This document shows, piece after piece, positions 21,437 to 38,007 of a DNA stretch of 64,000 nucleotides (position 1 is the first letter of the stretch; the number at the start of each line of letters is the position of its first letter). Made by a program: the position numbers and the translations under genes. Below the pieces are notes generated by a model. The model was not told the origin of the DNA, ran no database searches, and saw only the letters and a program-made list of their open reading frames with translations. The stretch is from a marine gamma proteobacterium HTCC2148. GTDB taxonomy: Bacteria; Pseudomonadota; Gammaproteobacteria; Pseudomonadales; Halieaceae. Location of the stretch: contig DS999228.1 of NCBI GenBank assembly GCA_000156295.1, positions 124,001-188,000 on the forward strand. Direction: 5' to 3'.

Positions 21437-22830
21437 TCGATAATATTTACTGGCACTTCTAAAACATTAACGGCGAGTCCGCCGCGGGCGGTTTCTTTGT
21501 ACTTATCCTGCATGTCACGACCGGTGTCACGCATAGTGCGTATTACCTGATCCAAAGACACATAGTGTTCGCCGCTGCCGCGTAAGGCCATGCGAGCAGC
21601 ACTTATAGCCTTAATCGCACCCATGGCGTTGCGCTCAATGCACGGCACCTGTACCAGGCCACCAATAGGGTCACAGGTCAGCCCCAAGTTGTGTTCCATA
21701 GCAATTTCAGCAGCGTTTTCAACCTGCTCTGGAGTGCCGCCTAAAGCGTCTGCAAGAGCGCCGGCTGCCATCGAACAGGCTGAGCCGACTTCCCCCTGAC
21801 AACCCACTTCAGCGCCGGAAATAGAAGCATTGGTTTTATAGAGGATACCGATAGCGGCGGCAGTGAGCAGATAACGTTGGATGTCGTCTTCGCAAGAACC
21901 GCGACAGTGATTCAGGTAATACTTAAGGACCGCCGGAACAATGCCCGCGGCGCCATTGGTTGGAGCAGTCACCACCCTACCCCCAGCTGCGTTCTCTTCA
22001 TTCACGGCCAGGGCATAAAGGGTTACCCAGTCCATAGTATTGAGAGACTCATCGCCAAATGAGTTTTGCTCGGTTTTTAGCTGACGATACAATTGCGCGG
22101 CGCGGCGCTTAACCTTAAGGCCACCAGGCATCACGCCCTCGGTCACCACGCCTTTATCAATACACGCACTCATCACCTGCCATATAGCCAGTAGTTCGCT
22201 GCGTATCTCTTCACCACTTCGCCATGCTTTTTCGTTTTCCAGCATCAAAGCGCTAATGGAAAGACCATTGTCCCTACATTTCTGCAACAGTTCGTCAGCC
22301 GTACTGAAGGAGTAAGGCAAGGGCGTGGGGTCCTCGATTATCGCGTCAGCACCGGCCGCCTGCTCGTCAACAACGAATCCACCGCCTACCGAGTAATACA
22401 CGCATTGCACTAGTAAATCGCCATTCGCATCCCAGCTGCTAAAGCGCATTCCATTGGCATGATAAGGCAGCGACTCGTTGCGGTGCATGATCAAATCGTT
22501 ACGGTAGCTAAAGTCGATGCGGTGCTGCCCCAGTAGATGCAGTTCCCCCTGCTCTCGCACCCCGGCCACTCGCGCAGCGATGGTGTCAACATTGACGCCC
22601 TCGGGAGTCTCGCCCGCTAGCCCCATTAAAATTGCTTTGGGTGATCCGTGGCCTGCGCCGGTCGCTCCCAAAGAGCCGTATAGCTCAACACAAACCCTAC
22701 CGCAGGTTTGCAGCAATCCATCTTTTTCAAGGCGCTGGGCGAACAGCCGCGCAGCATGCATCGGCCCCACCGTATGCGAACTGGACGGGCCAATGCCGAT
22801 TTTGAACAAATCGAATGCACTGATAGACAT
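21430..22830 (-). CDS. sdaA: L-serine ammonia-lyase (serine deaminase)
   Basis: A 466-residue iron-sulfur serine deaminase with both domains in one chain. [10 protein letters not shown] near the N-terminus belongs to the beta domain; the alpha domain follows with the catalytic and cluster region ([48 protein letters not shown]), including the cysteines that hold the 4Fe-4S cluster. It converts L-serine to pyruvate and ammonia. It is divergent from the operator-bearing cluster at 23 kb, but no operator placement suggests it belongs there. Confidence 0.96.
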
Positions 22831-22917: not shown

Positions 22918-22931
22918 TGACTTCGAATGCA
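22918..22931 (+). promoter_or_regulatory. LacI-type operator copy 1
   Basis: TGACTTCGAATGCA, 73 bases before the first NTF2-like gene (23004). It is an imperfect palindrome around a central TTCGAA with a CG centre (TGNNTTCGAANNCA), typical of LacI-family sites. It is preceded by a run of T. Confidence 0.8.
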
Positions 22932-23003
22932 AGGTATTATTCAGCAACATTCGCAACACGACACACTGCGATCTAAACTGCTAGCAGTACAGGGAACACA
23001 TTA

Positions 23004-24065
23004 ATGGAAAACCATTACGACAGCGCTCCTGCAAGCGGCGAACCCGCGGGGCTACCCGGATTCGACTCTGAATTCACAGACATTGTCGACTATATCCTGC
23101 GTATCACCTACCGCATCTGGGAAGGAAAGCAGGTCGGACTTTGTTACGACTACTACTCCGAAGACTGCCCTGTTTACACCCTCGCGGGATACACACAAGG
23201 TGCCGAAGAAGTCACTCAGAACACAATGCGCACATTGGCAGGCTTCCCCGACCGTACCCTGCACGCGGATAATATTGTCTGGGGCGGCGACGCCGAGACC
23301 GGTTACCACAGCTCTCACCTGATCTGTACTAACATGACGAACCTTGGGCCCAGTGAGTTTGGAGATGCTACCGGCGCGCAGGCCCAGATTCAGGTCATTG
23401 CCCATTGCGTATGCAAGGACAACAAAATCATAGAAGAATGGTTGGTCAGGGATAATTACTCGCTAGCCATCCAGCTCGGTGCTGATCCCCTGGAATATGC
23501 CAGAGAGCAGGCAGCCAGACCACTGGAGCCCAGCGGCACCTTCGCCCAGTGGCTCAAAAGCGAACACGAAAGAGTGAGCATGCAGGCGCGCGAAAAAATC
23601 ACCTACCCGCCTGTTGCTGAAGACAATGAAAAATACATCAGCGCTGCGCTTGGCAATATATGGAATGCGCGCATGCTGGGAGATTGCCGCCTTCTTTACA
23701 CTGAGAACGCCCGACTGCATGCCTCTGCCAGGGAAGATTACGATGGTGTGGAACGAATCTCACAGTTCTACATGGAAATGCTTGGCTCAATGCCCGATGC
23801 AAAAATATCTGTTGACTACAGCTGCAGCAATTCGATGCTGGCAGGCGAGTACGTTGCAGTGCGCTGGGTCATTGCGGGCACCCATTCAGGCGGTGCGTTG
23901 TGGGGCGCACCCACCGGCGCGCCGCTGCTTATTCTCGGCGAGAGCCAATATCGTATTGTTGATGGAAAGGTGGTTGAGGAATGGCTGGTGTTTGACGAGT
24001 TGGCCGTGCTCACTCAAATCGAACGCGCAAGGCTCGCTATTGAGCAAGCTACAACTGGAGAATGA
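23004..24065 (+). CDS. Two-domain NTF2/SnoaL-like protein A
   Basis: A 353-residue protein of two consecutive NTF2-like (SnoaL/ketosteroid-isomerase fold) domains, at about 20-165 and 195-345. Domain 1 holds YYSEDCPVYTLAGYTQGAEE and ends IIEEWLVRDN. Domain 2 holds IWNARMLGDCRLLYTENARL and ends VVEEWLVFDE. The repeated EEWLV at the last strand shows the internal duplication. SnoaL-type proteins are cyclases, isomerases, dehydratases or hydrolases acting on small carbonyl compounds. It starts after operator copy 1 and overlaps the next gene. Confidence 0.82.
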   Translation: MENHYDSAPASGEPAGLPGFDSEFTDIVDYILRITYRIWEGKQVGLCYDYYSEDCPVYTLAGYTQGAEEVTQNTMRTLAGFPDRTLHADNIVWGGDAETGYHSSHLICTNMTNLGPSEFGDATGAQAQIQVIAHCVCKDNKIIEEWLVRDNYSLAIQLGADPLEYAREQAARPLEPSGTFAQWLKSEHERVSMQAREKITYPPVAEDNEKYISAALGNIWNARMLGDCRLLYTENARLHASAREDYDGVERISQFYMEMLGSMPDAKISVDYSCSNSMLAGEYVAVRWVIAGTHSGGALWGAPTGAPLLILGESQYRIVDGKVVEEWLVFDELAVLTQIERARLAIEQATTGE

Positions 24066-24067
24066 AA

Positions 24068-24487
24068 ATGAGTGCATTTGAAACAGCAACCGCATTTTTT
24101 CACGCTTGCGAAGGGCTTCAAGGTTGGGAAGGCTGCAAGCAGTACGTGGCAGAGAACGCTGTATTTTCTGCCCAGAGTGAGCCTCTGGTCGACATACAGC
24201 TAGTTGAGGGTTACTGCGAATGGATGGCCGGCCTGGGTAAAGGCCCTCTGGTTGGTTGCGGCTACAGCATCCACAGTTCAGCCTGGGACGAAGCCAATCG
24301 CACTGCCCTCTATTTCGCGACATTTAACGGTGAGCACTCTGGTGAGGGTGGTCCAGTTCCAGCGACCGGTGGCGTCACACATTCACACTACGTGTATGCC
24401 ATTACCATGGACGACGACGACAAGGTTTGCGCAATGACCAAAGTCTGGAACGCACCCTGGGCACTGAAAGAATTGGGTTGGATGTAA
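24068..24487 (+). CDS. Single-domain NTF2/SnoaL-like protein
   Basis: A 139-residue single NTF2-like domain. The ATG at 24068 or 24062 overlaps the stop of the preceding two-domain protein (ATGA), so they are co-translated. The typical early helix (FETATAFFHACEGLQGWEGC), the core strand ENAVFSAQSE and the final strand VCAMTKVWNAPWALKELGW are visible. It is shorter than its neighbours and could be an ancestor-like unit or a small subunit of an oligomer. Confidence 0.75.
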   Translation: MSAFETATAFFHACEGLQGWEGCKQYVAENAVFSAQSEPLVDIQLVEGYCEWMAGLGKGPLVGCGYSIHSSAWDEANRTALYFATFNGEHSGEGGPVPATGGVTHSHYVYAITMDDDDKVCAMTKVWNAPWALKELGWM

Positions 24488-24491
24488 CGCT

Positions 24492-25499
24492 TTAGCGGTG
24501 GCGCCGGAACCATTGAACATCTCGCGCCACTGCTGCTGAAAAGGCCTCGCCGCTAAACAGGTGATCCTCACCTGGAATGACTTTAAGCTGATATTCCCTG
24601 CCGGACAAATACAGGCGAGCAGCCAGCTCAAGTGAGTTTATCACTGGCGTTGCCTGGTCTCCCAAAGAATGCTGAATAGACAAGGGCGCGCTTATTGATG
24701 CCGCCTGGCTAATCGCCGATAGCTGATCAACAGTGGCACTGGGGTCGATATCAACCAACTCCGATTGCAGCGCGTTCAGCAGTACTTTCTTGCTCTCACT
24801 ATTATCTTCTGCGTTTGCAGACTTCAGGGTAATAGCCATCAGTTGAGCGTGTTTATCTGACCCCGCCATGGACCAGACTGAACCAGCCCTGACTCTATCA
24901 CCCAAGGCCTGCATGGCCCTGAGCGTGATGGGGCCTCCCATTGAATGACCCAGCATATAAGCCCTGTCCAAATTCAGGTCAGTCAGGGAACTCAATGCAA
25001 GAAAGCACGCAATAGCGTCACGGCTATACCAGGCATCAGCCAAAGCGCGCTGTGTAAACTCCTCCCCTTCCGAAACATTGTGCCCTCGATAATCTGGCGC
25101 TATTACCGCAAACCCGGCTCTGGCAAATGCCTGCACCGTTTCCCGATAATAGTCGCCAGGGCGGTCACTTTGACCTGCTGTGTTGAAACCATTAAGTGGC
25201 GGATTAGGATGAAAGCCGTGGTTGAACTGAACTACAGGCCAACCGCCTTTTGGCGCTATGCCAGCAGGCCGAAGCAAAAGAGCGTACTGACTAAGACCGT
25301 CGACTTCAAAGCCCAGGACTTCCCTGCGAATCCCCTCAGTCGCGGGATTATTGCGAACATGGTGAAATTCATAGCTTGCATCCAATGCCATTAAACTGAG
25401 GTCTGCAGGCCTTACACCACCCTCTTCTCCCATAACCTGAATTGCGAGGAAATAACTCAGCCAGGTCAGTGCCCAGGTATATTGAAGTCTCTTACACAT
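24492..25499 (-). CDS. Secreted alpha/beta hydrolase
   Basis: A 335-residue alpha/beta hydrolase with an N-terminal signal peptide (basic start, hydrophobic 8-22, MGEEG after it). The nucleophile elbow GHSMGG is at 184-189 (S186). The acid is probably in SLGDQATPV and the histidine in GEDHLF. VQFNHGF and APDYRGHNVSEG fit the dienelactone-hydrolase/prolyl-oligopeptidase group. Being exported, it may release the substrate of this locus from an ester or polymer. It is divergent from NTF2-like protein B and shares operator copy 2 with it. Confidence 0.88.
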   Translation of the reverse strand: MCKRLQYTWALTWLSYFLAIQVMGEEGGVRPADLSLMALDASYEFHHVRNNPATEGIRREVLGFEVDGLSQYALLLRPAGIAPKGGWPVVQFNHGFHPNPPLNGFNTAGQSDRPGDYYRETVQAFARAGFAVIAPDYRGHNVSEGEEFTQRALADAWYSRDAIACFLALSSLTDLNLDRAYMLGHSMGGPITLRAMQALGDRVRAGSVWSMAGSDKHAQLMAITLKSANAEDNSESKKVLLNALQSELVDIDPSATVDQLSAISQAASISAPLSIQHSLGDQATPVINSLELAARLYLSGREYQLKVIPGEDHLFSGEAFSAAVARDVQWFRRHR

Positions 25500-25558
25500 T
25501 TAATTTTCCGCCAGCATGACTGTGCCCTACAGGGGTTCTTTGTTATCCTCCAGTGATA

Positions 25559-25572
25559 TGACTTCGAATGCA
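25559..25572 (+). promoter_or_regulatory. LacI-type operator copy 2
   Basis: TGACTTCGAATGCA, identical over all 14 bases to copies 1 and 5. It lies between the divergent secreted-hydrolase gene (start 25499) and NTF2-like protein B (start 25595). The in-frame ATG at 25568 is part of the operator, which argues for the later start. Confidence 0.82.
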
Positions 25573-25594
25573 AGCGCAGCGAACAAGGACAAAA

Positions 25595-26620
25595 ATGACA
25601 GACATACATAACGCTAACAAGCGGCTCGTTGCGCAATTAACCAGCGCCCTTTACGACTACAGCCCAGACAACGTTTGCAAGACGCTTAACTCGCTGTTTA
25701 GCGAAGATGCACTCATACAACTGTCCTTCCCTTTTGAGAGCCTGAGAGGACCCGATGCTCTTTTCGAAGATGCCTATTGTGGACTGTACAATGCAATTCC
25801 CGATCTGGAGCGCCGCGATCATATCGTGATTGCCGGGCCAACCAATCACGCCGACAACTGGGTGGGCTGCTGTGGTTATTATACCGGGAGTTTCGAAAAG
25901 CCCTGGCTAGACATCCCTCCCACTGGGCATCAGGTGGCTATGCGGTTTCACGAGTTCTTTCGCATAGAGAACGACAAAATCGTAGAGATGCAGGCAATTT
26001 GGGATATACCGGAGGTGATGCTGCAGGCAAATGCCTGGCCCATGGCTCCCAGCCTGGGGCGGGAATGGCAGGTGCCCTCCCCCGCCCTGCAAAACGGGAT
26101 CGTTCAGGGGCCATGGGATCAAGCGCACTCGGCCTCCAGCCAACAGTTGGTCAGCGATATGTGCGATGCATTGGGGAACTTCGCTGATGGCGGTGTGGAG
26201 GCGATGGAACTAGAGAAGTACTGGCATCCTCGCTGCAGCTGGTACGGCCCTGCGGGCATTGGCACTGGCCGTGGTATCGCCGGCTTTCGCAACTGGCACC
26301 AAATACCGTTCTTAAACGGCTTACCCGATCGAGTCGGAGACGCAGCCGCAGGACACTTGTTCTCTGACGGAGATTTTGTTGGTTTTACTGCATGGCCAGG
26401 AATGCACATGAGTGTGGGTGGCGACGGGTGGTTGGGAATAGCGCCTTCGGGCCAGCAGATAACAATGCGCAGCCTGGATTTCTGGCGCTGTGAAAATGGG
26501 CTGATTCGTGAAAACTGGGTACTGGTTGACCTGTTACACGTCTATCATCAGCTGAATGTGGACGTGTTTGCCAGACTGCGAGAGTTCAACAAAGCCAGGC
26601 CGGGCCTGCTCAGGGATTGA
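25595..26620 (+). CDS. Two-domain NTF2/SnoaL-like protein B
   Basis: A 341-residue protein from the ATG at 25595, which has AAGGA seven bases upstream; the earlier ATG at 25568 lies in the operator. Two NTF2-like domains: the first runs to about residue 155 (FHEFFRIENDKIVEMQAIWD). The second contains WYGPAGIGTGRGIAGFRNWH and ends ENGLIRENWVLVDL. The WYGPAGIG and ENWV motifs are shared with proteins C and D. The 3' end overlaps the end of convergent gene C by 11 bases. Confidence 0.84.
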   Translation: MTDIHNANKRLVAQLTSALYDYSPDNVCKTLNSLFSEDALIQLSFPFESLRGPDALFEDAYCGLYNAIPDLERRDHIVIAGPTNHADNWVGCCGYYTGSFEKPWLDIPPTGHQVAMRFHEFFRIENDKIVEMQAIWDIPEVMLQANAWPMAPSLGREWQVPSPALQNGIVQGPWDQAHSASSQQLVSDMCDALGNFADGGVEAMELEKYWHPRCSWYGPAGIGTGRGIAGFRNWHQIPFLNGLPDRVGDAAAGHLFSDGDFVGFTAWPGMHMSVGGDGWLGIAPSGQQITMRSLDFWRCENGLIRENWVLVDLLHVYHQLNVDVFARLREFNKARPGLLRD

Positions 26621-27614
26621 GGATTTTACTAGTGCGCTCTAAAACATCCAAACCCTGCTGCTTAAGCCAGTAAGGTATGTCAATAATTACCCAGTTCTCT
26701 ATCAACTTATCGCCTTCTCGACGATAAACATCTACCACCCGCATATGCGTCTGCTCACCTCCTGGTAAGCCCATAAGACCGCCATTTGGTTTATGGGAGA
26801 GATTGGGCCAGCCGAAAAAACAGGCAAAGTTACCCTCTGCAAAACGACAAACGTGGCCGTTATAGGTTTTGCCGGTGAGCCCTTCCCTGAACGGATATTG
26901 ATGTTGCTCCTGATACCTGGGAATTGTGTAAGAGGCGCCAATTCCTGCGGGGCCGTACCACAGCATATTTTCATCCCAGGTTCTGGCCAGATACTGCGGT
27001 GAGCAATTGTCATCCCCCGCTTTGTTAAGCTCGTCAAGGTCAGCAATCATTGCGTTCAGGACGTTAAGGGTTTTTATGCCCTCTTCCTCAGTTTGTTGCT
27101 CTAAAACAATACCATCATGGTTGCGTGGTCCGGGGCAAACAAAAGAGGCGCCCGTCTGGGGTGGTAAAGGATTACAACCTACCTGCTGCATCAGCCCAAC
27201 AATATCGAGGAACATTCCGGTCCTGACGATTTTACCATCAGCGATACAGTTGAATTCTGCATAGCGCAACATGACCATCTTGCGCGTTGCACGAATTCCC
27301 AGCCAGTCGTCATCAAACAGCCCCATAAAATGGCCCATGCTCATGACCCATTGATCACCGTCAATCTCGCTACTGCCTGCAATAAAAATGTCTTGTCGCC
27401 GCTGAAGTGACTGGAATGCATTGAACAGCGGCTGCCAAAAGCCAGCGGTAATTGCTGCAGGTCCACGCATTTCATTAAACGGGTAGCTACCGAGAAACTC
27501 ACAGTCGTCACTGGCAAATCGACCTAACACCGCGCCGACGGCATCTGCACTGCAGCCTTCCAGAGCGTCAAAATACTCCAGAACAAGGCTCTTGTTCTGC
27601 TGGTAGTCGGCCAT
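26610..27614 (-). CDS. Two-domain NTF2/SnoaL-like protein C
   Basis: A 334-residue paralogue of proteins B and D, with GGGAGA before the start. Domain 2 carries LWYGPAGIGASYTIPRYQEQ and ends DKLIENWVIIDIPYWL. Domain 1 ends at about residue 150 with DGKIVRTGMFLDI. It is last in a minus-strand operon led by the bicupin gene (31350), 18 bases after the symporter. It differs from B and D in the loop after PAGIG (ASYT instead of TTRG/TGRG), so the paralogues may act on different intermediates. Confidence 0.84.
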   Translation of the reverse strand: MADYQQNKSLVLEYFDALEGCSADAVGAVLGRFASDDCEFLGSYPFNEMRGPAAITAGFWQPLFNAFQSLQRRQDIFIAGSSEIDGDQWVMSMGHFMGLFDDDWLGIRATRKMVMLRYAEFNCIADGKIVRTGMFLDIVGLMQQVGCNPLPPQTGASFVCPGPRNHDGIVLEQQTEEEGIKTLNVLNAMIADLDELNKAGDDNCSPQYLARTWDENMLWYGPAGIGASYTIPRYQEQHQYPFREGLTGKTYNGHVCRFAEGNFACFFGWPNLSHKPNGGLMGLPGGEQTHMRVVDVYRREGDKLIENWVIIDIPYWLKQQGLDVLERTSKILNP

Positions 27615-27632
27615 TAAAGAATCTCCCGATAA

Positions 27633-29242
27633 TTAAGGAATTAAGTCGTTAAACAAATACAAGAAGGCTATGGTCGCTGCAAATAAAGCCAGCAAGTAAT
27701 AACTGATCTTATCCACTCGTCCGGGAACAACAAACCAGTTCCCATCTTTTTCTTCCCGCCCCTCTGCCAAATACTGCGCTTTTTGACCCACTACAGTATA
27801 GGGGGAGTAATCTTCCTGCCGCCCATCGATTATAAGGCTGGCCAGCAGAGACACGCTGATATTAACTGCACCGCCGATGGCGCAGAACCAGGGCCAGGCA
27901 ATGTCTGTTCGCGTAGCCACATACCAGACCACAACAAAGCCCACGGCGACTCCGATCAGCAGGCCACGTTCGGTGGTATGTTTTGAAAAGAAGCCCAAAG
28001 CGAACATACTCAGCTTGGCGCCGACAAAATAGGACCCTACTTTACTCAGGGTTTCCAAAATAGAGCCTTCGCTTTCGGCAAACATAAGGGCTGGAACCAC
28101 AATCAGCGCCGCCCAGAACACCGTGAACGCTCGAGAGACTGTTAGATAGTGTGCACCAGATTCATCCGGTCTGAAATAGCGCTGGTAAAAGTCGATGGTG
28201 GAAACTGTGGACATTGAATTGAACGCGGAATCAAGGCTGGACATACTCGCCGCCAACACTGCCGCTGCAATAAGCCCCATAAGTCCAGGCAAACCGTAAT
28301 CGGCGGCAAAGTGGAGGATAATCGTATTGCCGTTTTCGAATTCGCGGCCACCATAGTATGAATAGAACAACACGCCCAACAGAATGAACAAAAAATAAAT
28401 AAAGAATGCGCCAAAGCCCATCATCAAGAATGACTTTTTGGCATCGCCAATATTTTTTGCAGCCAGGGTACGCTGCACCATCATCTGGTTAGCGCCATAG
28501 ACAGTGACATGAAACAATGTCATGGCGATAACGCCAGACCAGACCGTCGTCACTTTAGTAAAATCAAAACTTAAGTCCAACGCGTTAGTGCGTCTTGTGC
28601 CTTTAACTCAGTTAGTGCTTCCACCAGAGGCACCGGCATCTCTGAGAGCAGCGCAAACAAAATAACAAATGCGCCTACAAATAAGATTCCCGCCTGGATA
28701 ACGTCGGTCCATATTACTGCTGCAATGCCGCCCATAGACGTATAGATAAGGGCAATAAGAGTAACGATGACAATACAGTACTCAACCTGCAAGCCAGTAA
28801 TAAACTCCAGTACCAACGAAGTCGCGTAAAGAATCGCCGCCGACGTCAGTCCCTGAGACAGCAGAAACACACCAGACATCACACTCCGGGAGGTGGGCCC
28901 AAAGCGCTTCTCCTGGTACTCGTAAATTGATGCAACACCGCTGTTGAAAAAGAACGGCAAGAAAAACGTCACCACAAAGAAAATAACGAGTGGATAATTC
29001 AAGTGTATGGCTATAACAGAGAGGCCATCGGTGTAAGCCCAGGCAGGGCCGCCAAGAAAAGTCAGTGCACTAACATAAGTACTGACTACTGAAACACCAA
29101 TTGCCCACCAGGGAATACTTCGATCTCCAAGAAAGAAGTCGTTCGCCGACTCGATCTTTTTCCCCAGATAAAAACCAAGGCCAAGGTTGGCGATCACATA
29201 AATCACCAGGATAGACCAGTTTAGCGTGCCAAATTCTGTCAT
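27633..29242 (-). pseudogene. Sodium:solute symporter, broken by a frameshift
   Basis: Two abutting frames together encode one SSS-family transporter of about 535 residues. The first (29242-28571) covers helices 1-7, with YVIANLGLGFYLGKK, ANDFFLGDRSIPWWAIGVS and AVIWTDVIQAG. The second (from about 28580 to 27633) continues with SGVIAMTLFHVTVYGANQMM and AASMSSLDSAFNSMS, the sodium-site region. At 28571-28582 the frame is lost after ...DALT; one missing base there would restore ...DALT-x-LDLSFDF. It is either a recent inactivating mutation or a sequence error. Start chosen at 29242; a GTG at 29248 is also possible. The gene directly follows NTF2-like D. Confidence 0.88.
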
Positions 29243-29247
29243 TGTCA

Positions 29248-30222
29248 CTACCTGTTTGTTATTGCGCTCATTTGGGCAAAGACATCTAAGCCCATCTGGT
29301 CCAGCATGTGTGGTATGTCAATCGCCACCCAATTCTCTTTCAGGAGATCGCCCTCCCGCCGCCAAATATCCATGACGCGCAAACTCAAGTGGCGATTCGA
29401 CGGCGGCAAGCCCAGCCAATCTCCTCCGGTATGGGTACCGTGCATATGTGGCCAACCACCTGTTGCAACGTAGTCGCCGCAAGCAACAGTACAGGCGTGA
29501 TGATCAACGTCTCGGTCCGGAAATGCCTTGAGAAACGGCCCCTGATGATGGCGGCGGAAACCTTCAATACCGCGGGTAGTGCCGATACCCGCTGGGCCAT
29601 ACCACATAAAATCAGGGTGCCAGAAGTTTTTCAGGTCCATGCTTTCGAGGCTTTTCCCGTCGTATTTGCGCAGGCAGTCGAGCATATCCATTATTAGTTG
29701 TGCTGTGCCCATGCTCCGGTCCGGGTCGCTGTCAGCACCGCAAATGCCGTCAAGACTGGTCGGCGGCATCATTAACCCTGAATGCCCCAACGAGGAGCGT
29801 AATGGGTATACCCCGGCCTGCTGCATTGCATCAAGAAAATCAGGGAACAGGTAGCACTGAGTAATACGGTCATTTTCTACACGCACCAGTTCTGAATAGC
29901 GCAGATATAGCGTTTTCCCCGTAGCTGGTATACCAAAAAGTGGTGCACTGAACGTACCTATAAGGTAGCCGGTTCCCGCAATCCATTGTTCACCCTGAAA
30001 GTCCCCAGGGATGTGGATAAACGGCTTGCGTTCAAGGTCAGGCATGGCCTGGATCAGGGGCAATAGAAAGTCATCGACGACGCTGAAAACACCCGCCAGG
30101 TCATTGACCGGGTGGCACGCCGACCATTTAACCTGTTCACTCAGGGTCGCCGCGGCGACTTTTCGAATCTGTGCTTCATTAGCGCCTGAGAGCGCTGCAT
30201 AGAGTTTGTCTATGACACTCAT
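29248..30222 (-). CDS. Two-domain NTF2/SnoaL-like protein D
   Basis: A 324-residue paralogue. Domain 2 contains FMWYGPAGIGTTRGIEGFRR and ends GDLLKENWVAIDIPHML, parallel to proteins B and C. Domain 1 (about 10-145) ends NDRITQCYLFPDFL. The stop TAG overlaps a possible GTG start of the symporter, so the pair is closely coupled. Preceded by the bicupin gene (75 bases) in the same operon. As for the other paralogues, catalytic residues cannot be assigned with certainty. Confidence 0.84.
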   Translation of the reverse strand: MSVIDKLYAALSGANEAQIRKVAAATLSEQVKWSACHPVNDLAGVFSVVDDFLLPLIQAMPDLERKPFIHIPGDFQGEQWIAGTGYLIGTFSAPLFGIPATGKTLYLRYSELVRVENDRITQCYLFPDFLDAMQQAGVYPLRSSLGHSGLMMPPTSLDGICGADSDPDRSMGTAQLIMDMLDCLRKYDGKSLESMDLKNFWHPDFMWYGPAGIGTTRGIEGFRRHHQGPFLKAFPDRDVDHHACTVACGDYVATGGWPHMHGTHTGGDWLGLPPSNRHLSLRVMDIWRREGDLLKENWVAIDIPHMLDQMGLDVFAQMSAITNR

Positions 30223-30297
30223 ACTGAATACTGCTTTCCTTGTTATTAGAATAGAAATCTGGCCAGTTGCGGCCTGCCGATCGAAGAGCGCTTACCG

Positions 30298-31350
30298 CTA
30301 GCGTGATGCAGCGGACTGCACAGAGCTCTCCATCCAGCTTGGTGCAGCGGGTGCGTTCCCGCCTCTAACCACATAGCTTGTCACCAAGCTGCTACCCTTA
30401 TTGGTAAAGCCATGCATGAGATTGCGAGGCACCGTAAGAACATCACCCTCTCTCAACTCCAGTTCACCGCCATCCCATTGATAGATCAGACGACCTTTAT
30501 GCAGGCACACTACCTCTTCTTCTTCACGTGAATGAAAAGGTAGAGTTGCTGCGGGATCAAAGTCCAAACGACGCACCTGAAAACCATGGTCCCAGTTCAT
30601 CTTACCGGCCTGAATACCCTCAGCTGCGCTAGCTGGCCCAATCATTGCGTACTCGGAGACACCGGTAACGCTATCTGTTAACGCAGAGCCAGCGCGTTGT
30701 CGCTGCTCAGTGATGGGCATAACGCAATCAAGCATTTCTGCCACGCTCATCACCCGATGAGAATTTACCTGCTCATCGGTGGTCTTGGGCATAGGTCGCT
30801 CTCCCTGGGGCACTTGCTCGCCGCGGGTAGTATCCACAAGCAAACCGCTCTCCAACAATACCAGACCATATTCACTCGCCTTATCGAACACGTCAGGTGC
30901 CCACATTACATGCCCGGGATCATCACGGCCAAGTACCGCAAACAGGTAACCAACATCGTCACCCACATTTTCAAAACCACGAAATACGTTAACGGGAATA
31001 CTGATGCAGTCGCCAGGGCCTAGTACAACCTCTCCATCCTGGCACTCATCTCCCCAACGGAACGCCCACTGGCCACTATGAACGATAAACACCTCTTCTG
31101 TTTCATGGCTATGCTGGGAGTTCGCACACCGAGGGGGCTGCCGCGCGCCGCCAATATTAAAGCCGTGGGCTTCCTTAATGTGCACGTGTTGATCCGGGTG
31201 TTCTGCAACACCGGGTCCAATAATGGTGAAGTTTTCTTTTTTATCGCTTCCCGGTGTATAGGTATCTACAAAAGCGTTGAGACAGGGACGCAACTCAGTG
31301 TAGCGCACAAGGCGTTGCCTCATTTTTTCGGGAGTCCATTCTTTGGACAT
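30298..31350 (-). CDS. Bicupin protein, possible dioxygenase
   Basis: A 350-residue protein of two cupin domains. Domain 1 has the metal motif HSHETEE (H80, H82, E86) but has R124 (NVFRGF) where the last metal histidine is expected. Domain 2 has H273 and a nearby glutamate (FHSREEEE), and H313 (NLMHGF). Bicupins of this layout include gentisate and quercetin dioxygenases and isomerases. Its start is preceded by GGAG. It leads the operon bicupin - NTF2 D - symporter - NTF2 C and is divergent from the amidohydrolase, with operator copy 3 between them. Confidence 0.82.
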   Translation of the reverse strand: MSKEWTPEKMRQRLVRYTELRPCLNAFVDTYTPGSDKKENFTIIGPGVAEHPDQHVHIKEAHGFNIGGARQPPRCANSQHSHETEEVFIVHSGQWAFRWGDECQDGEVVLGPGDCISIPVNVFRGFENVGDDVGYLFAVLGRDDPGHVMWAPDVFDKASEYGLVLLESGLLVDTTRGEQVPQGERPMPKTTDEQVNSHRVMSVAEMLDCVMPITEQRQRAGSALTDSVTGVSEYAMIGPASAAEGIQAGKMNWDHGFQVRRLDFDPAATLPFHSREEEEVVCLHKGRLIYQWDGGELELREGDVLTVPRNLMHGFTNKGSSLVTSYVVRGGNAPAAPSWMESSVQSAASR

Positions 31351-31422
31351 TCTGTTACTCCAGTAAAATCTCGCTCAATAGCCGCGTGTTTCTCTTGCGC
31401 TGGCTGTCCGATCTGTGAAAAT

Positions 31423-31436
31423 GTACTTCGAATGCA
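31423..31436 (+). promoter_or_regulatory. LacI-type operator copy 3
   Basis: GTACTTCGAATGCA, differing from copies 1, 2 and 5 only in the first two bases and identical to copy 4. It is placed between the divergent bicupin (start 31350) and amidohydrolase (start 31467) genes, where it could control both. Confidence 0.8.
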
Positions 31437-31466
31437 AATATTTAGCAAGCCCGGGAACCAAACATC

Positions 31467-32357
31467 ATGACAAGCACCGATTTACACTTCGTAGACGCCC
31501 ATCATCACCTCTGGGATTTGGGGCACTGCAACTACCCCTGGCTGATGGCAAAGGGCGAAATGCGTTTTTTTGGAGACCCTGGCCCCATCCAAAAAAACTA
31601 CTTTATCGATGATTTTTTGGCGGAGTCAGTTGATTATCGACCAGTGAAGAGTGTTCATATTCAGGTTGGCGTTACACCGACCGATGAAGTCAGAGAAACG
31701 GCTTGGCTACAATCGCAACAGCCCTACCCCCATGCCATTGTTGCGGCAACCGACCTGCGTGCTGACACTCTTCGAGCGAAACTGGAGGCGCACGGGGAGT
31801 CAGACCGCCTCCGAGGCATTCGGCAAATACTGGGCAGGCACGAACTGGAGGACAAGAAGCACGGAAGTGATGCGCTGCTAAAGGATCCCGACTTTTTACG
31901 GGGACTCAGCTTACTCGCCGCCCAGGGTCTGTCGTTCGACCTACAAATGGTGCCACCGCAAATGGATCAGGTAATTGCGCTACTTAAACAGGTGCCAACG
32001 CTGCCCGTCGTGCTCTGTCACGCGGGCTCTCCCTGGGACCAGTCCCGGACTGGACTAGAAAACTGGCGTAACGGTCTGGAGAAGTTCGCAGCTCTGCCTA
32101 ACACCTATTGCAAACTGTCGGGGCTTGGCATGTTCAATCCGCGCTGGGATGAAACTGCTCTGCGACCAATAATACTGCGAGTATTGGAGACGTTTGGGCC
32201 GACCCGGGTGATGTTTGGCTCTAATTTCCCGGTAGACAAGCTCTACAACAATTACGGCTACCTATGGCAGACCTATGATCGGGTGACTGCTGATTTCAGC
32301 ACTACCGAACGCCAGCAGATGTTCTGCACTACAGCTGAAAATTTTTATCGAATCTGA
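31467..32357 (+). CDS. Amidohydrolase, fuconolactonase/PDC-hydrolase type
   Basis: A 296-residue TIM-barrel hydrolase of the COG3618 group. The metal-binding start VDAHHHLWDL gives H12 and H14. Later barrel motifs are VLCHAGSPWD and FGSNFPVDKLY (the family's terminal strand with aspartate). Relatives open sugar-acid lactones or 2-pyrone-4,6-dicarboxylate. In this locus a lactone formed by dehydrogenation is a sensible substrate. It is transcribed alone on the plus strand after operator copy 3 and ends one base before the convergent aldolase gene. Confidence 0.88.
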   Translation: MTSTDLHFVDAHHHLWDLGHCNYPWLMAKGEMRFFGDPGPIQKNYFIDDFLAESVDYRPVKSVHIQVGVTPTDEVRETAWLQSQQPYPHAIVAATDLRADTLRAKLEAHGESDRLRGIRQILGRHELEDKKHGSDALLKDPDFLRGLSLLAAQGLSFDLQMVPPQMDQVIALLKQVPTLPVVLCHAGSPWDQSRTGLENWRNGLEKFAALPNTYCKLSGLGMFNPRWDETALRPIILRVLETFGPTRVMFGSNFPVDKLYNNYGYLWQTYDRVTADFSTTERQQMFCTTAENFYRI

Positions 32358-33113
32358 CTAGCGCGGAAATGCGTTTACCAGGTTAGCAGCGCCCTGCAGT
32401 AGGAAACTGTGATCAGAAGACAGCAGAAACAAGCTGGCACCCGCTTCCTGCCAGCGCGGAATTTCATCGAGGTTACCGACGAACATGCCTACCGGACGTC
32501 CCGCATTGCCAGCGCTCTGGCAAATTTTTTCCACTGCCTGTATCACTGAGGGTTCAGCAGGCGAACTTGCGCCTAGAGCCACGGTTAGATCAATCCGCCC
32601 TATAAACAAACAATCGATACCTTCCACCGTCGCGATTTCGTCAATAGCGTCGAGTGCTTCAAGGTCTTCAATCTGGGCGACAACGACTGACTGCGCAGCA
32701 CTATCATCGAGGTGTCTGGGCATTGCCTTGGTAGTGTAGCCAGCGGCGCGGGTAGAACCGGCATAACCGCGACCACCGGCACCAAACTGTGCTGATGCCG
32801 CGACTTTTTCGGCCATCTCTGGCGAAGTCACATGAGGTACAACCACTCCCGTTGCGCCGCAATCCAGTGCATTAAGAACATGTTCCGGTGCCGCTGTAGG
32901 CACCCTTACCAGAGACGGCATGCCTTCACTGCGCAGGGCGTAAAGGCACTGATCCTGAACCAGTCGATCAAAGGGTGAGTGTTCCGCATCAAGGCACAAC
33001 AAGTCCAGCGCACTCTTGCCCAGTACTTCGCACAGCATCGGCGATGGCGTTTTGACAAAGCTGCCAAGCAACTGCTCCCTGGCGGCTATCCGGTTTTTCA
33101 GTGATTCGGGCAT
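32358..33113 (-). CDS. HpcH/HpaI-type class II aldolase
   Basis: A 251-residue aldolase of the HpcH/HpaI family, which cleave 2-keto-4-hydroxy acids into pyruvate (or a related keto acid) and an aldehyde using a divalent metal. Key residues fall at the HpaI positions: H45 (DAEHSP), R70 (SLVRVP), E149 (AQIEDLEALD) and D175 (GRIDLT). It is last in an operon with the MetE-like gene and an alpha/beta hydrolase. It probably carries out the carbon-carbon cleavage of the pathway. Confidence 0.92.
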   Translation of the reverse strand: MPESLKNRIAAREQLLGSFVKTPSPMLCEVLGKSALDLLCLDAEHSPFDRLVQDQCLYALRSEGMPSLVRVPTAAPEHVLNALDCGATGVVVPHVTSPEMAEKVAASAQFGAGGRGYAGSTRAAGYTTKAMPRHLDDSAAQSVVVAQIEDLEALDAIDEIATVEGIDCLFIGRIDLTVALGASSPAEPSVIQAVEKICQSAGNAGRPVGMFVGNLDEIPRWQEAGASLFLLSSDHSFLLQGAANLVNAFPR

Positions 33114-33117
33114 TAGC

Positions 33118-34263
33118 TCACTTCCACAGGTTTTGACTGGCCAGCGCGGCGCCCTCGACCATGGCTCCTAATTTAGCGTAGACAATATCTTCATCCACCG
33201 CACCAAATCCTGCAAAAGTCGAGAATCCGCAATCGGTACCAGCAATAACACGCTCACGGCCAACGATACTGGCGAACTTTTCAATACGCTGTGCTACCAA
33301 TCTGGGATGCTCAACGAAGTTGGTAGTGGAGTCGATCACCCCGGGCACCAGCACTTTATCTTGCGGAATATCGGCGTCGCGAAAAACTTCCCACTCGTGG
33401 GCGTGCCGAGGGTTAGAGGACTCGAACAACAGCGCCTGTGGCTTAGCCTTCATCGCAATTGGGAGTACCGTCTCCATAGGAGCATCACAGTGATGCGGTC
33501 CCTCGTAGTTGCCCCAACAAACGTGTAGACGCACCTTTGCCGCGGGTATATTACGCAAGGCATCGTTAAGCACCTCCACGTGGAGGTTGGCCATGGCGAT
33601 GTATTCTTCCTCGGGCTTGTCCTTGAACAGCATGTGGCGCCCAAGGCCCAGATCCGGTGAATCCAGCTGAAGAATAAACCCTGCGTTGACAATCGCTTCA
33701 TACTCTGCCCGCATTGCATCGCCCAGCGCCTGCAAATAGTCACTGTGGTTTGAGTAGTGTTTGTTAGGCTGAAACAACGCAATAACGCCGGGGGACGCTG
33801 CGTTCATGAACCCTTCTGCTGCGCCATGCTGCTGAACGGCCGCATTAAAATTGGCTAGGTCTTCCTCAAGTGGTTCCATATCCTTGACAGCAATTTCCCC
33901 GACACAACAGGGCCTCTTGTAACTGGGCGTTCCGCCGGAGCTCGCCTGACGCGCCAAGAAGCCAGGAAACTCCTCCAGATCTGCGGGGGGATTGCGCTCG
34001 CTGTCACCGGCAAAACCAGTAATTCGGTCCTTGATATAGGTAGCGTAACTAATCTTGCTCATCTCACCGTCGCTAACAATATCTACGCCCGTTTCTACCT
34101 GCCTGCGCACGACCTCATCCACTGCGGACTTAATCGTAGCCGCGAGATTATCGACGTCATAGGGCTGTTCATTTTCCTTGGCAAAAACACCATCGGTGAC
34201 AGCCTTGGAGCGGGGCAAACTTCCCACATGAGTTGTTAAAATTTTATCTGTACTTATTTTCAT
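33118..34263 (-). CDS. MetE-like (cobalamin-independent) zinc protein
   Basis: A 381-residue homologue of the C-terminal catalytic domain of MetE, without the N-terminal half. Zinc ligands are in place: H247 and C249 (RLHVCWGN), E281 (LLFESSNP) and C345 (GTDCGF). The start TTHVGSLPRS is the family hallmark. Stand-alone domains of this kind include methyl transferases and epoxyalkane:coenzyme M transferase. In a catabolic locus a thiol or methyl transfer step is more likely than methionine synthesis. The ATG overlaps the stop of the hydrolase gene upstream. Confidence 0.88.
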   Translation of the reverse strand: MKISTDKILTTHVGSLPRSKAVTDGVFAKENEQPYDVDNLAATIKSAVDEVVRRQVETGVDIVSDGEMSKISYATYIKDRITGFAGDSERNPPADLEEFPGFLARQASSGGTPSYKRPCCVGEIAVKDMEPLEEDLANFNAAVQQHGAAEGFMNAASPGVIALFQPNKHYSNHSDYLQALGDAMRAEYEAIVNAGFILQLDSPDLGLGRHMLFKDKPEEEYIAMANLHVEVLNDALRNIPAAKVRLHVCWGNYEGPHHCDAPMETVLPIAMKAKPQALLFESSNPRHAHEWEVFRDADIPQDKVLVPGVIDSTTNFVEHPRLVAQRIEKFASIVGRERVIAGTDCGFSTFAGFGAVDEDIVYAKLGAMVEGAALASQNLWK

Positions 34264-34991
34264 TGGATTTCACTCTCGTTGTCTTTAAACCAATTCAGCA
34301 GCGCGGCATTCACCGCGCTCGGTTGCTCCATAGTAGAAAGGTGCCCACACTCGGGGATAATGCGTAGCCTGGAGGATGTAATCATTGCGGCCATTTCACG
34401 ATGCAAGGCTGGCGAGCAAAGATCATCTTCCTCACCGCACAGCACCAGAGTCGGACAATTAATAGTTGTCAGTGTATCGGCGCTATCGGGTCTATCGCGC
34501 AAAGCCTCAGATTGTCTTACGAAGACGTCATCGCCCAAGCCCATACCCATATAAAGCACATCGTCCAGCAGAGCAGTATTCTCTCGATGGCAGCGGGCAA
34601 GGTAGTTAGGTTTCAACTCGTCGCGCAGAATTGCTCCCAAAGCACCTTGCCTCACCTCGTCCATTTGTCGATTTCGCATTGTGCGCTTTTCATCAGTGTC
34701 GGCATGAAAGTTGGTATCGAGCAATGCTATTCGTTCTATCCTGTGTGGCGCTTGTCGCCACATTTCCATCGCAACGATTCCGCCCATGGATAGGCCCGCT
34801 AGCGCAAACTGCTGTGGGGCCCCATCTAAGACATTCGAGGCAATGGATTGAATACTGTTGTCCCCAGTTATGTCGCCGTGGAAAACTGAACAAATCGGTG
34901 AAATCGCCTGAACCTGCGATGCCCATAGGCCCGCATCGCACATCATGCCCGGCAACAGCAATAAATTTGTACTTCGAATGCATTCAGGCAT
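34260..34991 (-). CDS. Alpha/beta hydrolase, cytoplasmic
   Basis: A 243-residue alpha/beta hydrolase. The first strand and oxyanion region LLLLPGMMCDAGLW is at 10-23; the nucleophile motif GLSMG is at 66-70 (S68). The acid lies in CGEEDDLCSP and the histidine in ECGHLSTMEQP. No signal peptide. From the ATG at 34991, operator copy 4 would encode residues 4-8; no ribosome-binding site precedes this ATG, so the start is uncertain, yet a later start would remove strand 1. It lies 11 bases after lacI and overlaps the MetE-like gene. Confidence 0.87.
   Translation of the reverse strand: MPECIRSTNLLLLPGMMCDAGLWASQVQAISPICSVFHGDITGDNSIQSIASNVLDGAPQQFALAGLSMGGIVAMEMWRQAPHRIERIALLDTNFHADTDEKRTMRNRQMDEVRQGALGAILRDELKPNYLARCHRENTALLDDVLYMGMGLGDDVFVRQSEALRDRPDSADTLTTINCPTLVLCGEEDDLCSPALHREMAAMITSSRLRIIPECGHLSTMEQPSAVNAALLNWFKDNESEIQ
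34969..34982 (+). promoter_or_regulatory. LacI-type operator copy 4
   Basis: GTACTTCGAATGCA, identical to copy 3. It lies at the lacI/hydrolase junction, overlapping the first codons of the hydrolase gene. It could control a separate promoter for the hydrolase - MetE-like - aldolase genes, or act as an internal roadblock within a longer transcript. Confidence 0.75.
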
Positions 34992-35002
34992 AAATAAAAA
35001 GC

Positions 35003-36043
35003 CTAGATGCGCACACTGCTGCCATCACGCAGCACGCCCGAAAAAACGCGCTTTTCTGGCGGTAAATTCTGATCATCAACTCTGTCCATCAACATCGACA
35101 CAGCGGCCTCGGTCATGCTCTCTACCGGCTGCGCGACAGTCGCGAGGTCAAAACTGGACCAGGATGCGGCGCGCACTCCGTCGAAGCCCACGACTGACAC
35201 GTCTCCTGGAACGTCGTACTCGAGGTGAAAGCGCAGTTCGTCCATGGCGCCAAACGCCATCATGTCGTTAGCGCAAATGATGGCATCAGGAGCACTACCC
35301 CGTAGCTCGATAATCTCCTGCACAGCCCTGCGTCCGGACTTATAACCATAATCGCCACTGACCTGTGTTACATCGGTAACACCAGACTCATCCAACCTGT
35401 CGATCGCGCCCCGCGTACGCTGCATACTAACAACCGAGTCGGAGGGTCCAGTAATAATGGCATAGGATTTATGCTGGCCACTTTTTGTCAGACGATTGAT
35501 CAGTGCTCGCTCACCGCCTACCTGGTCGCAACTAACAGAGCTGACAGGTATGTCTTCGTAAGAGCGATTGTAAAAAACCAAAGGAACATTGCGTTCTTCG
35601 AAAGTAACGATTTCATCGGGTGACAAATGTGCTGCGGCAATCACACCATCTACCTGGTATTGCCAAACCCGCTCCAGAGTGCGGCTGACATCACTTTCAT
35701 GATCCAGCGTGAAAAGTAGCACGTGGACACCACGTTCAGTAAAGCGAGCGCTCAATTCAGAGACGACTTCGGGATAAAAATTCAAATTGGACACGATCAC
35801 CGCGACCATGTTCGAACGTCGAGTGATCAAACCACGGGCAATCGCGTTGGGCGTATAGCCCATTTCCTTGACTGCAGTCATTACCCGCTCGCGCATCTTT
35901 TTAGAGACACTTGCACCCGGTTTAAAGCACCGAGAGACTGCCGATTGCGAAACACCGGCATGCAGAGCGACGTCGTAAGACGTCACATGCCTTTTCGTGT
36001 TAGCGAAATTTTCCTTGCGGGTACTACTGCCGGTTTTTGCCAT
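35003..36043 (-). CDS. LacI-family transcriptional regulator
   Basis: A 346-residue repressor. The helix-turn-helix is at about 17-37 ([20 protein letters not shown]), with the hinge region [16 protein letters not shown]. The periplasmic-binding-like sensor domain follows ([46 protein letters not shown]). It starts inside the end of the HpsN-like gene (20-base overlap). Its local regulon is probably marked by the five TTCGAA-centred operators between 22.9 and 37.4 kb. The inducer is probably the substrate or an intermediate of the locus. Confidence 0.95.
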
Positions 36044-37307
36044 ATCGTCTTACGCGAATATCTGCCTGTTCTTTATGACCCGCGAACCCTTCCACGGCAC
36101 ACAGGCGAGAACAGTATTCACCGACCATGGCAGAGGCTTCGGGGGTTACCCGCTGGAAGGTACAGGTCTTGATAAACTTGCCTACCCAGAGCCCGCCAGT
36201 ATAGCGCGCCGCTTTCTTCGTTGGCAAAGTATGGTTGGTACCAATGACCTTGTCACCGTAAGACACATTAGTCTCCTGTCCAAGGAAAAGCGCGCCATAG
36301 TTACTCATATTCTTCAGGAAATAGTCCGGATCGCGAGTCATTACCTGCACGTGCTCAGAGGCAATCGCATCAGCCACCTCAACCATTTCTTCATAGCTAT
36401 CGCATAAGATGACCTGGCCATAGTCTTTCCAGGCAGCGCCAGCAATTTCGGCGGTAGGCAGAACTGTCAGCTGTCGCTCTACTTCAGCCATGGTATCCAG
36501 CGCCAATTGTTCTGAGTTAGTTAACAAGACCGCTGGTGAATTAGGGCCGTGCTCAGCCTGCCCCAATAAGTCTGCAGCACACAGCTCGCCATCGCAGCTG
36601 TCATCGGCAATCACCAGCGTTTCTGTGGGACCAGCAAATAAATCGATACCCACACGTCCGAACAGTTGACGTTTCGCTTCTGCCACGAAGGCGTTACCGG
36701 GACCCACTATCATATCAACGGGTGCGATTGTTTCGGTACCAATCGCCATCGCACCTACGGCCTGTACGCCGCCAAAGCAGTAAATTTCATCGGCTCCCGC
36801 CATATCCATGGCGACTACAATCGCTGGTGATGGCGTTCCATTAAACGGAGGTGCGGCCGCAATGACTCGTTTGACTCCTGCGACCTTGGCGGTCACCACA
36901 GACATGTGCGCAGATGCCACCAGAGGGTACTTACCACCTGGCACGTAGCAACCGACACTATTCATTGGAATATGCTTGTGCCCCAGCACGACACCGGGGA
37001 GTGTCTCCTCCTCCACATCCACCATCGAATTGCGCTGGATCTGCGCGAAGTTACGCACTTGCTCCTGGGCAAAGCGAATATCGTCAATGACTTGTTGATC
37101 TAGCTCTTCATAACACGCAGCGATCTGGTCTTTACTCAGGCGAAAGCTGTCAGGACGCCAGCTATCGAATTTCTCTGAGTAGTCGCGAATGGCAGCGTCG
37201 CCCCGCAATTCGATCTGCCCGAGAATATCCTCCACGATACCTCTAACTTTTGCGTCCTGAGTCTGGACTTCCTCGACGGACATTCCTTCTTTAAGGTATC
37301 TAGCCAT
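36024..37307 (-). CDS. HpsN-type dehydrogenase (histidinol dehydrogenase paralogue)
   Basis: A 427-residue member of the histidinol-dehydrogenase family. Metal ligands are conserved (Q250, H253 in LGQAEHGP; D352 in YGDKV; H411 in AGHKEQ), as is the catalytic pair E318-H319 (SEHVQV). Stretches such as [20 protein letters not shown] and [13 protein letters not shown] are closer, from memory, to HpsN (sulfopropanediol 3-dehydrogenase) than to HisD. No other his genes are present. It would oxidise a primary alcohol by four electrons to a carboxylate. First gene of the lacI operon, behind operator copy 5. Confidence 0.88.
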
Positions 37308-37360
37308 TGCGCTATCTCCGGGGTGCTTTGTGCGTGAACCAAAGGCATGCTAAACATTTT

Positions 37361-37374
37361 TGACTTCGAATGCA
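37361..37374 (+). promoter_or_regulatory. LacI-type operator copy 5
   Basis: TGACTTCGAATGCA, identical to copies 1 and 2. It lies between the HpsN-like gene (start 37307, minus) and the decayed hydrolase (37451, plus). On the plus strand it overlaps a candidate -35 (TTGACT, 37360-37365), with TATAAT at 37385-37390 (spacing 19), so a bound repressor would block that promoter. Confidence 0.8.
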
Positions 37375-37450
37375 ATTTATCCGATATAATCTCTCGCTTT
37401 GTCGCGGCAGCTCAGGAAACATTGGTGAGATGGGAATTGGAACTCGATGT

Positions 37451-37966
37451 ATGACGAACGCAAAAGCGCTGATTTTGATAGGCGGCCTGATACTGACGAC
37501 CGCAACAACAAGTGCCAACCCTGAGCCAGTCAAGCCCGATTGCACGACTGCCCCTTGCGTCTGCCTGAAATCGCTGGCGGAGCTGTCCACCGAAGCGCTG
37601 CGTCAGCGTGAGTATCACAGCACACTCAAGACATTGCACAAAGTAGCACGCAAAGACAAACTCAGAACCTACATGCTCGGCTATTACTCGGACTCGTCAG
37701 CGTTCTAAAGTCGACGGGATCTGCCCTCTTCCGAGCCGCCTGAATACGGCTATCCAGGACTTATACTTGCTCCGAGCTGGATTTCCCGAAAAGACGCATT
37801 AACAAAGTCAGGAGGACAGGCTAAAGTCTATATTTATCCTGGCAATACGCACTCCTTGAAAACCAGCAGACACAGCTGGTTCTCACCGCCCGGAACCATA
37901 GACGGCGCGCCTGTCGCTTTAGACGGTGACCGTAAACTGTTTAAAGGTTACGGTCTCACCGACTGA
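37451..37966 (+). pseudogene. Decayed secreted alpha/beta hydrolase
   Basis: From the ATG at 37451 a signal peptide (MTNAKALILIGGLILTTATT) and a mature part run to an in-frame TAA at 37706-37708. The same frame then stays open for another 86 codons, with hydrolase-like sequence: EYGYPGLILAPSWISR, a typical first core strand, then GGQAKVYIYPGNTHSL, a typical C-terminal strand and histidine loop. The nucleophile region between them, about 150-200 residues, is missing. A stop plus an internal deletion mark it as a pseudogene. It is divergent from the HpsN-like gene at operator copy 5. Confidence 0.65.
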
Positions 37967-38007
37967 CGTTAATTGAGCCTACTCTAACAAATACCTAGGA
38001 ATTGAAC

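Follow-up and report, generated by a model that had tools for sequence, protein, structure and literature searches.

LacI-family regulators commonly repress by occluding an operator, from which a metabolite of the pathway releases them. The non-phosphorylative catabolism of deoxy-sugar acids proceeds through a lactonase and a 2-keto-3-deoxy acid aldolase, and the polyether epoxide hydrolase Lsd19 is a tandem protein. In the part of a LacI-family survey used here, even palindromes, most of them CG-centred, make up 1251 of 1303 motifs, and more than 75% of the sites are found at 30-140 bp ahead of genes (PMC4052901). For CpHpsN, an enzyme of sulfopropanediol (DHPS) catabolism, the sections of the source used here report that His126 recognises the sulfonate and separates the DHPS enzymes from histidinol dehydrogenases (PMC11382572). 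We compare these systems with a gene cluster of the marine gamma proteobacterium HTCC2148, which lies on contig DS999228.1 within a stretch of 64,000 nucleotides (the window) and contains a gene for a LacI-family protein together with five copies of a short palindromic element.

A sequence-only reading of this stretch had proposed that the five elements mark a LacI regulon and define a catabolic locus. We estimate the probability that they are operators of the LacI protein encoded at 35003-36043, and that this protein represses a catabolic regulon, at about 0.87. The motif, its rarity, its conservation and its co-occurrence with this LacI and the gene set are directly supported. On the evidence of the sequences compared, the proposal that a LacI-family regulon marks a catabolic locus not yet described is well supported, and the genes of the cluster are probably switched together by one repressor.

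Candidate operators and their distribution

An exact search located the core ACTTCGAATGCA five times in the window, always on the plus strand, at 22920, 25561, 31425, 34971 and 37363. The five identical cores of the sequence-only reading are therefore present, at coordinates that were the starts of a 14-mer beginning two bases upstream; this 14-mer has the form TGACTTCGAATGCA in three copies and GTACTTCGAATGCA in two, the two variants that had been distinguished by their first two bases. None of 100 shuffles of the window held five or more exact matches, and composition predicts 0.007 matches in the window and 0.46 in the genome. A genome-wide scan had been suggested as a check, with many randomly scattered copies as the outcome that would count against the proposal; the 31 contigs of the genome (4.33 Mb) hold few copies of the exact core, seven in all, of which five are in the window, one is at the end of contig C15 and one is on C28, and the reversed-pattern control has none. 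The looser pattern TGCATTCGAANNCA with two mismatches matched nine times in the window against a shuffle mean of 7.4 (30 of 100 shuffles reached nine), and a 13-mer with one mismatch gave 39 genome matches against 11 for its control. Because such looser patterns are non-specific, our claim is based on the exact core and a 16-mer model. In a literature text search, the 12-mer ACTTCGAATGCA occurred in two papers, neither of which has a bearing by title.

The copy at C28:205114 (L130, about 7900-8140) lies inside a duplicated 5' fragment of the alpha/beta hydrolase gene ABH1, upstream of a TetR-family gene. The copy at C15:76149 is near a weaker site at the contig end, which cuts off the following gene; in this region (L129, 3809-8164) the two operator-like sites adjoin a group of sulfatase, RraA-like and tandem-NTF2 genes. 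The other genome matches to TGNNTTCGAANNCA were scored only, and reach at most 12.1 bits in the 16-mer model.

Loci of relatives were taken from a scan with the LacI protein (the best 80 of 122), and 24 of the 80 were called pathway-bearing by tblastn and clustering (L049-L069, L072, L103 and L117). Nineteen of these 24 carry sites of at least 14 bits, and these 19 together with the window served to train the 16-mer model. The resulting 51 sites describe a 16-bp CG-centred palindrome with the consensus TTGCATTCGAATGCAA, of which ACTTCGAATGCA is one version; the half-sites occur as TTGCA, TTGAC, TTGAA and TGTAC, and the invariance of TTCGAA is by construction, since the seed patterns of the 16-mer table contained it. 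The predicted operator is longer than the element first described. An even palindrome of this length and centre (16-22 bp, CG) is typical of LacI-family sites as the survey portion describes them (PMC4052901), in agreement with the earlier assignment of the motif to that family.

By strand and spacing, every transcription unit between sdaA and the SDR gene may be assigned to one of the five sites (Table 1), as had been proposed. The related claim that each site occupies a promoter position held in part: six of nine site-to-gene distances are 37.5-94.5 bp upstream of the called start, within the 30-140 bp usual for the family, when an alternative NTF2B start at 29.5 bp is excluded from the count. 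It did not hold for the operators at 25558 and 37360, whose centres are 2.5 bp upstream of the called plus-strand starts and which abut the start codons, nor for a third site that falls inside ABH2. Called starts at these sites may have been placed too far upstream. Under a simple hexamer rule, no sigma-70 promoter pair passed within 70 bases of the window operators.

The LacI gene that had been noted inside the locus encodes a LacI helix-turn-helix and a periplasmic-binding-like effector domain (Pfam). Its recognition helix, VSQSAVSR, is identical in 23 of the 24 LacI rows from pathway-bearing loci, the row of L056 not covering the region. The position of lacI as the second gene behind operator 5 suggests autoregulation. 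In L209 (3977-5002; genome G401) a second LacI-family gene with 41% identity lies near the first.

The number of cores follows the presence of this LacI across genomes. At least three exact cores were found in 12 of 17 genomes with the LacI gene and in 0 of 144 without it, and the totals are 60 and 21 cores, respectively; some of the LacI-positive genomes coincide with named loci (for example G164 and L061, judged by coordinates), so the cases are only in part additional ones. In the family set (140 genomes, LacI at E<=1e-60 in six) the LacI-positive genomes have 7, 6, 4, 0, 0 and 0 cores, and the other 134 have 15 cores in all with a maximum of two. In the order set (390 genomes, LacI at E<=1e-70 in 13) cores were counted in the 11 new LacI-positive genomes, giving 6, 5, 7, 4, 1, 5, 0, 3, 6, 3 and 3, as against 2, 0, 0, 0, 0, 1, 0, 1, 1 and 1 in ten neighbour genomes chosen by handle number, four of them shown to lack a LacI match and six taken as negative by their absence from the match list.

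In accordance with the expectation that the motif would recur at orthologous loci, sites accompany pathway genes in Kineobactrum (L050), Pseudohalioglobus (L052), Pseudomaricurvus (L054), Exilibacterium (L055), Glaciecola (L057), Alteromonas (L058), Massilia glaciei (L060), SAR92 (L063, L065) and Porticoccaceae (L062, L064, L066, L069). The other 56 LacI loci are nearly all without pathway genes or motif, L098 having TGNNTTCGAANNCA inside lacI. Background was estimated from about 0.91 Mb of left-out loci (L070-L116, mostly Oxalobacteraceae), which gave seven matches of at least 9 bits. With a stricter pattern, TTGCATTCGAANNNA, by which sites of the GTACA form go undetected, there were 15 matches in five of eight pathway-bearing genomes, none in the other three, and two for the control. 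Neither TGNNTTCGAANNCA nor the exact core occurs in L049, L051, L056, L103 or L117; near matches are present in L049, L056 and L103, and L051 and L117 have none above 7 bits. L049 and L056, which are outside the model, share the site TTGCATCCGAATGCAA, one base off the palindrome, at the junction of NTF2A and NTF2C. Site conservation accompanies the orthologous regulator, with L051, G256 and the Oxalobacteraceae as exceptions.

In a table of sites and genes, whose 27 entries are the window, four further stretches and the pathway-bearing loci except L051 and L117 (22 of 24), sites precede the genes for the bicupin, NTF2A-D, the HpsN-like protein, the SDR, LacI, ABH1, ABH2 and ABH497, and also those for TonB receptors, the aldolase, the MetE-like protein, the amidohydrolase, a symporter and TPR-sulfotransferases. 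Genes of relatives were called by a longest-open-reading-frame rule that makes errors where the G+C content is high (L060, L190, L220). The predicted regulon of the relatives includes TonB receptors and TPR-sulfotransferases, an addition to the original proposal. In G196 and G232 the outlying cores precede TonB/TPR-sulfotransferase genes (L213, L215, L217) or the ABH1-NTF2B pair (L214, L216). In L208, L211, L213, L215 and L217, TonB receptor genes adjoin TPR-sulfotransferase genes near the same operator. Found near the gene set in single genomes were a GH1 protein (L190), a Beta-lactamase-family protein (L191) and an MFS_2 sugar transporter (L058).

Weighing the regulator and pathway assignments

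Several observations weigh against the interpretation of the elements as operators of this LacI. The genomes compared are related, and P values for the association of LacI and core consequently make it look stronger than it is. Three Halieaceae genomes, G037, G039 and G041 (L049, L056 and L051 by coordinates), have the LacI gene and no exact core; G230 has one core and G256, with a LacI of 38% identity, none. Conversely, G049, counted as LacI-negative, has two cores beside MetE-like and NTF2 genes, in an assembly that is 87% complete and gave no LacI match. In a one-by-one look at outlying cores, which omits G260 (beyond the LacI contig), G407 and G523, those of G054, G164, G179 and G201 are not followed by genes of the regulon families. 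For three of them the 16-mer scores are at chance level (4.4 bits in G054, L163; -3.9 bits at C26 of G179, L219; 4.4 bits at C85 of G201, L221). The core on C1 of G164 (L189, 8448) scores 23.1 bits and has a gene for monomeric isocitrate dehydrogenase on one side and one for threonyl-tRNA synthetase on the other; it may be a chance occurrence or an additional target. Within the window, the operator at 34968 has its centre in called coding sequence, 15.5 bp into ABH2, at a lacI-ABH2 junction that also has a site in L050, L052, L209 and L210. The chief difficulty comes from the Oxalobacteraceae, whose LacI proteins share the recognition helix; of seven such genomes tested, six have no site and one has a single site. 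These LacI proteins may have changed their targets. LacI homologues in L070-L116 have about 46-53% identity and the same helix, mostly without pathway genes; Massilia glaciei, in which some pathway genes are present, has three sites.

The Oxalobacteraceae proteins also lend something to the idea that the motif belongs to another regulator, of which the linked LacI is merely a regulated passenger, as do the placement of lacI itself behind operator 5 and the five candidate LacI-like places in the genome. We regard this as improbable, since core number tracks this particular LacI, the sites of relatives are often upstream of lacI or its operon, and the palindrome is of the LacI type as far as the survey portion defines it. 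It is scarcely credible that the 12-mers are recent duplications of a mobile repeat: the C28 copy does lie in a duplicated ABH1 piece, but the five window copies differ in their flanks, and the copies of other genera, located at matching gene junctions, have half-sites of different versions. The function of the locus, as opposed to its regulation, could be read as DHPS catabolism from its HpsN-like gene, whose best PDB matches are DHPS-3-dehydrogenases (8v35), followed by histidinol dehydrogenases. The position corresponding to His126 of CpHpsN, set by alignment to a chain whose numbering runs one ahead of that in the published portion we used, is Leu (eight) or Met (two) in 10 of 10 rows (the window, with Leu, and nine relatives). 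With this residue replaced, DHPS catabolism is very unlikely. Pfam scans of 17 locus proteins also gave no sulfolyase match, no dedicated search for SuyAB, HpsO or HpsP having been made.

Gene content and predicted pathway

For operators of LacI, as we prefer to read the five elements, binding, repression, the inducer, the order of reactions and the substrate are inferred as follows. A LacI dimer would bind the palindrome TTGCATTCGAATGCAA, whose usual forms in this genome are TTGACTTCGAATGCAA and TGTACTTCGAATGCAA, and would repress NTF2A, the ABH1 and NTF2B pair, the bicupin-NTF2D-symporter-NTF2C run with the opposing amidohydrolase gene, ABH2-MetE-aldolase, and hpsN-lacI (by autoregulation) with the opposing hydrolase remnant-SDR unit. 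LacI presumably leaves its operators in response to a small substrate or intermediate resembling a sugar or a polyol. The pathway would begin with import of an oxygen-rich organic compound and its de-esterification, and would continue with oxidation by the SDR and the HisD-fold four-electron dehydrogenase and with rearrangement by the tandem NTF2 proteins, the bicupin and the lactonase-like amidohydrolase. Its last step would be an HpcH/HpaI retro-aldol cleavage yielding pyruvate.

Table 1. Predicted operators and genes of the locus, with positions in the window.
Feature	Position	Strand	Remarks
Operator 1 (predicted), TTGACTTCGAATGCAA	22917..22932	.	Between sdaA (-) and NTF2A (+)
Operator 2 (predicted), ATGACTTCGAATGCAA	25558..25573	.	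Between ABH1 (-) and NTF2B (+)
Operator 3 (predicted), TGTACTTCGAATGCAA	31422..31437	.	Between bicupin (-) and amidohydrolase (+)
Operator 4 (predicted), TGTACTTCGAATGCAT	34968..34983	.	lacI-ABH2 junction, within first ABH2 codons as called
Operator 5 (predicted), TTGACTTCGAATGCAA	37360..37375	.	Between hpsN-like (-) and hydrolase remnant (+)
sdaA, serine dehydratase	21430..22830	-	Pfam SDH_alpha, SDH_beta; divergent from operator 1
NTF2A, tandem SnoaL/NTF2 protein, separate subfamily	23004..24065	+	
Small protein 3' of NTF2A	24062..24487	+	Without Pfam match; homologues in L054, L209
ABH1, alpha/beta hydrolase	24492..25499	-	Hydrophobic N-terminus
NTF2B, tandem SnoaL/NTF2 protein	25568..26620	+	
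NTF2C, tandem SnoaL/NTF2 protein	26610..27614	-	
SSS-family symporter gene, frameshifted	27633..29248	-	Pieces 28571-29248, 27633-28580; open in relatives
NTF2D, tandem SnoaL/NTF2-fold protein	29248..30222	-	Predicted structure, mean pLDDT 93.1
Bicupin	30298..31350	-	Heads minus-strand gene run behind operator 3
Amidohydro_2 protein	31467..32357	+	Nearest model L-fucono-1,5-lactonase, below cut-off
HpcH/HpaI aldolase	32358..33113	-	Nearest 2-dehydro-3-deoxyglucarate aldolase models, below cut-offs
MetE-like protein (Meth_synt_2)	33118..34263	-	
ABH2, alpha/beta hydrolase	34260..34991	-	Nearest PcaD-type enol-lactonase models, below cut-offs
lacI, LacI-family transcription factor	35003..36043	-	Pfam LacI 9.6e-14, Peripla_BP_3 2.9e-22; second behind operator 5
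hpsN-like, histidinol-dehydrogenase-fold	36024..37307	-	Pfam Histidinol_dh 3.1e-144; PDB 8v35 1.7e-122
Hydrolase-like remnant (ABH497)	37347..37963	+	Middle gone, in-frame stop; about 500 aa in relatives
SDR dehydrogenase	38002..38760	+	Last locus gene; directly behind a site in several relatives

The locus encodes four paralogous tandem-NTF2 proteins (NTF2A-D). Across 34 sequences, R65, R108, D128, H226, D285, E296 and D302 are invariant. A Foldseek search with the NTF2D model placed the polyether epoxide hydrolases Lsd19 and MonBI/MonBII on top (3rga, 9kw8; best E 2e-9), with SnoaL-type cyclases as the next fold matches. For the model of the bicupin (predicted local distance difference test score, pLDDT, 88.5), the matches listed include oxalate decarboxylases, quercetinases and seed globulins and have 9-16% identity. 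Cupins of the quercetin dioxygenase type bind their metal by three His and one Glu; the N-terminal cupin keeps H80, H82 and E86 with an invariant R124 at the position assigned to the third His, and in the C-terminal cupin H273 alone is invariant among the ligands as assigned. We rejected a quercetinase function in view of the weak sequence match, the low identity of the fold matches and the incomplete metal ligands. Judged by eye from its hydrophobic N-terminus, ABH1 is probably secreted.

In this genome the enzymes and operators look kept and the uptake side degraded. A single base present in L050 and L052 is missing from the symporter gene, and elsewhere in the assembly the closest match to this gene reaches 28% identity. 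TonB receptors of G401 and G029 (one of the two in G029 was searched) have best matches of 29-40% identity in the genome, and within the window tblastn matched neither three further TonB references nor the TPR-sulfotransferase of L052; assembly gaps, for example at the C15 end, could conceal uptake genes. ABH497 has longer open reading frames in L162, L208 and L211 and weak similarity to ABH1, and Pfam scans of the L162 and L208 copies returned no match. The gene sdaA may be a member of the regulon or a mere genomic neighbour. It adjoins a site in three genomes, those of the window, G029 (L161) and L191, and in L191 gcvH, gcvT and gcvP are downstream of it.

The gene families are a weak hint of a sugar-like or polyol-like compound in glycoside, ester or sulfate linkage; this assignment is a guess and counts among the points against our interpretation. 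More speculatively, and with the odds rather against us, the locus could specify an undescribed aerobic catabolic route shared by several marine Gammaproteobacteria families, acting on an esterified, possibly sulfated, oxygen-rich substrate (a polyol, a polyether or a sugar-polyketide), in which up to four tandem-NTF2 proteins would work without cofactors, as acid-base lyases, dehydratases or epoxide hydrolases, and the HisD-fold enzyme would make the acid that the HpcH aldolase splits. In line with the earlier statement that no described pathway has this gene set, a literature search yielded no published description of it among the matches listed.

Comparison with known systems

A common operator joins about 15 gene families in many marine bacteria into one predicted regulon, including distant TonB-sulfotransferase genes, and this regulon offers a handle on the substrate, which the sequence by itself does not reveal. 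The type of regulon is already known, and the pathway is possibly new.

As in Lsd19 and MonBI/MonBII, NTF2 folds span most of the length of NTF2D. The whole-protein TM-score is about 0.33, however, with a root-mean-square deviation of 14-17 A and 11-13% identity, the domain arrangement appears unlike, and the tandem NTF2 proteins here sit in a catabolic cluster. With non-phosphorylative deoxy-sugar acid catabolism the locus shares the families of its lactonase-like amidohydrolase and GarL-like aldolase, an SDR and a LacI regulator, but the amidohydrolase and the aldolase fall below the NCBIfam cut-offs (117 against 400 and 141 against 407 bits). Pfam found no enolase-type dehydratase among the 17 locus proteins scanned. 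Its families fit, but all models are below cut-off; we rejected this pathway as an assignment and retained it as an analogy.

According to the portion of the HpsN study used here, the locus enzyme keeps the Zn ligands Gln248, His251 and His411 as well as the catalytic Glu318, His319 and Asp352 and Lys353, and differs by Leu or Met in place of the sulfonate-recognising His126 (PMC11382572). HpsN-like genes without this signature residue are likely to be mis-annotated and should not count as evidence of DHPS catabolism. The closest likeness is to the local regulons in the part of the LacI-family survey used here, with which the locus shares a 16-bp CG-centred even palindrome, a small number of operons, probable autoregulation and linked catabolic and transport genes, and from which it differs in a set of tandem NTF2, HisD-fold dehydrogenase, MetE-like and TPR-sulfotransferase genes that this part of the survey does not mention (PMC4052901).

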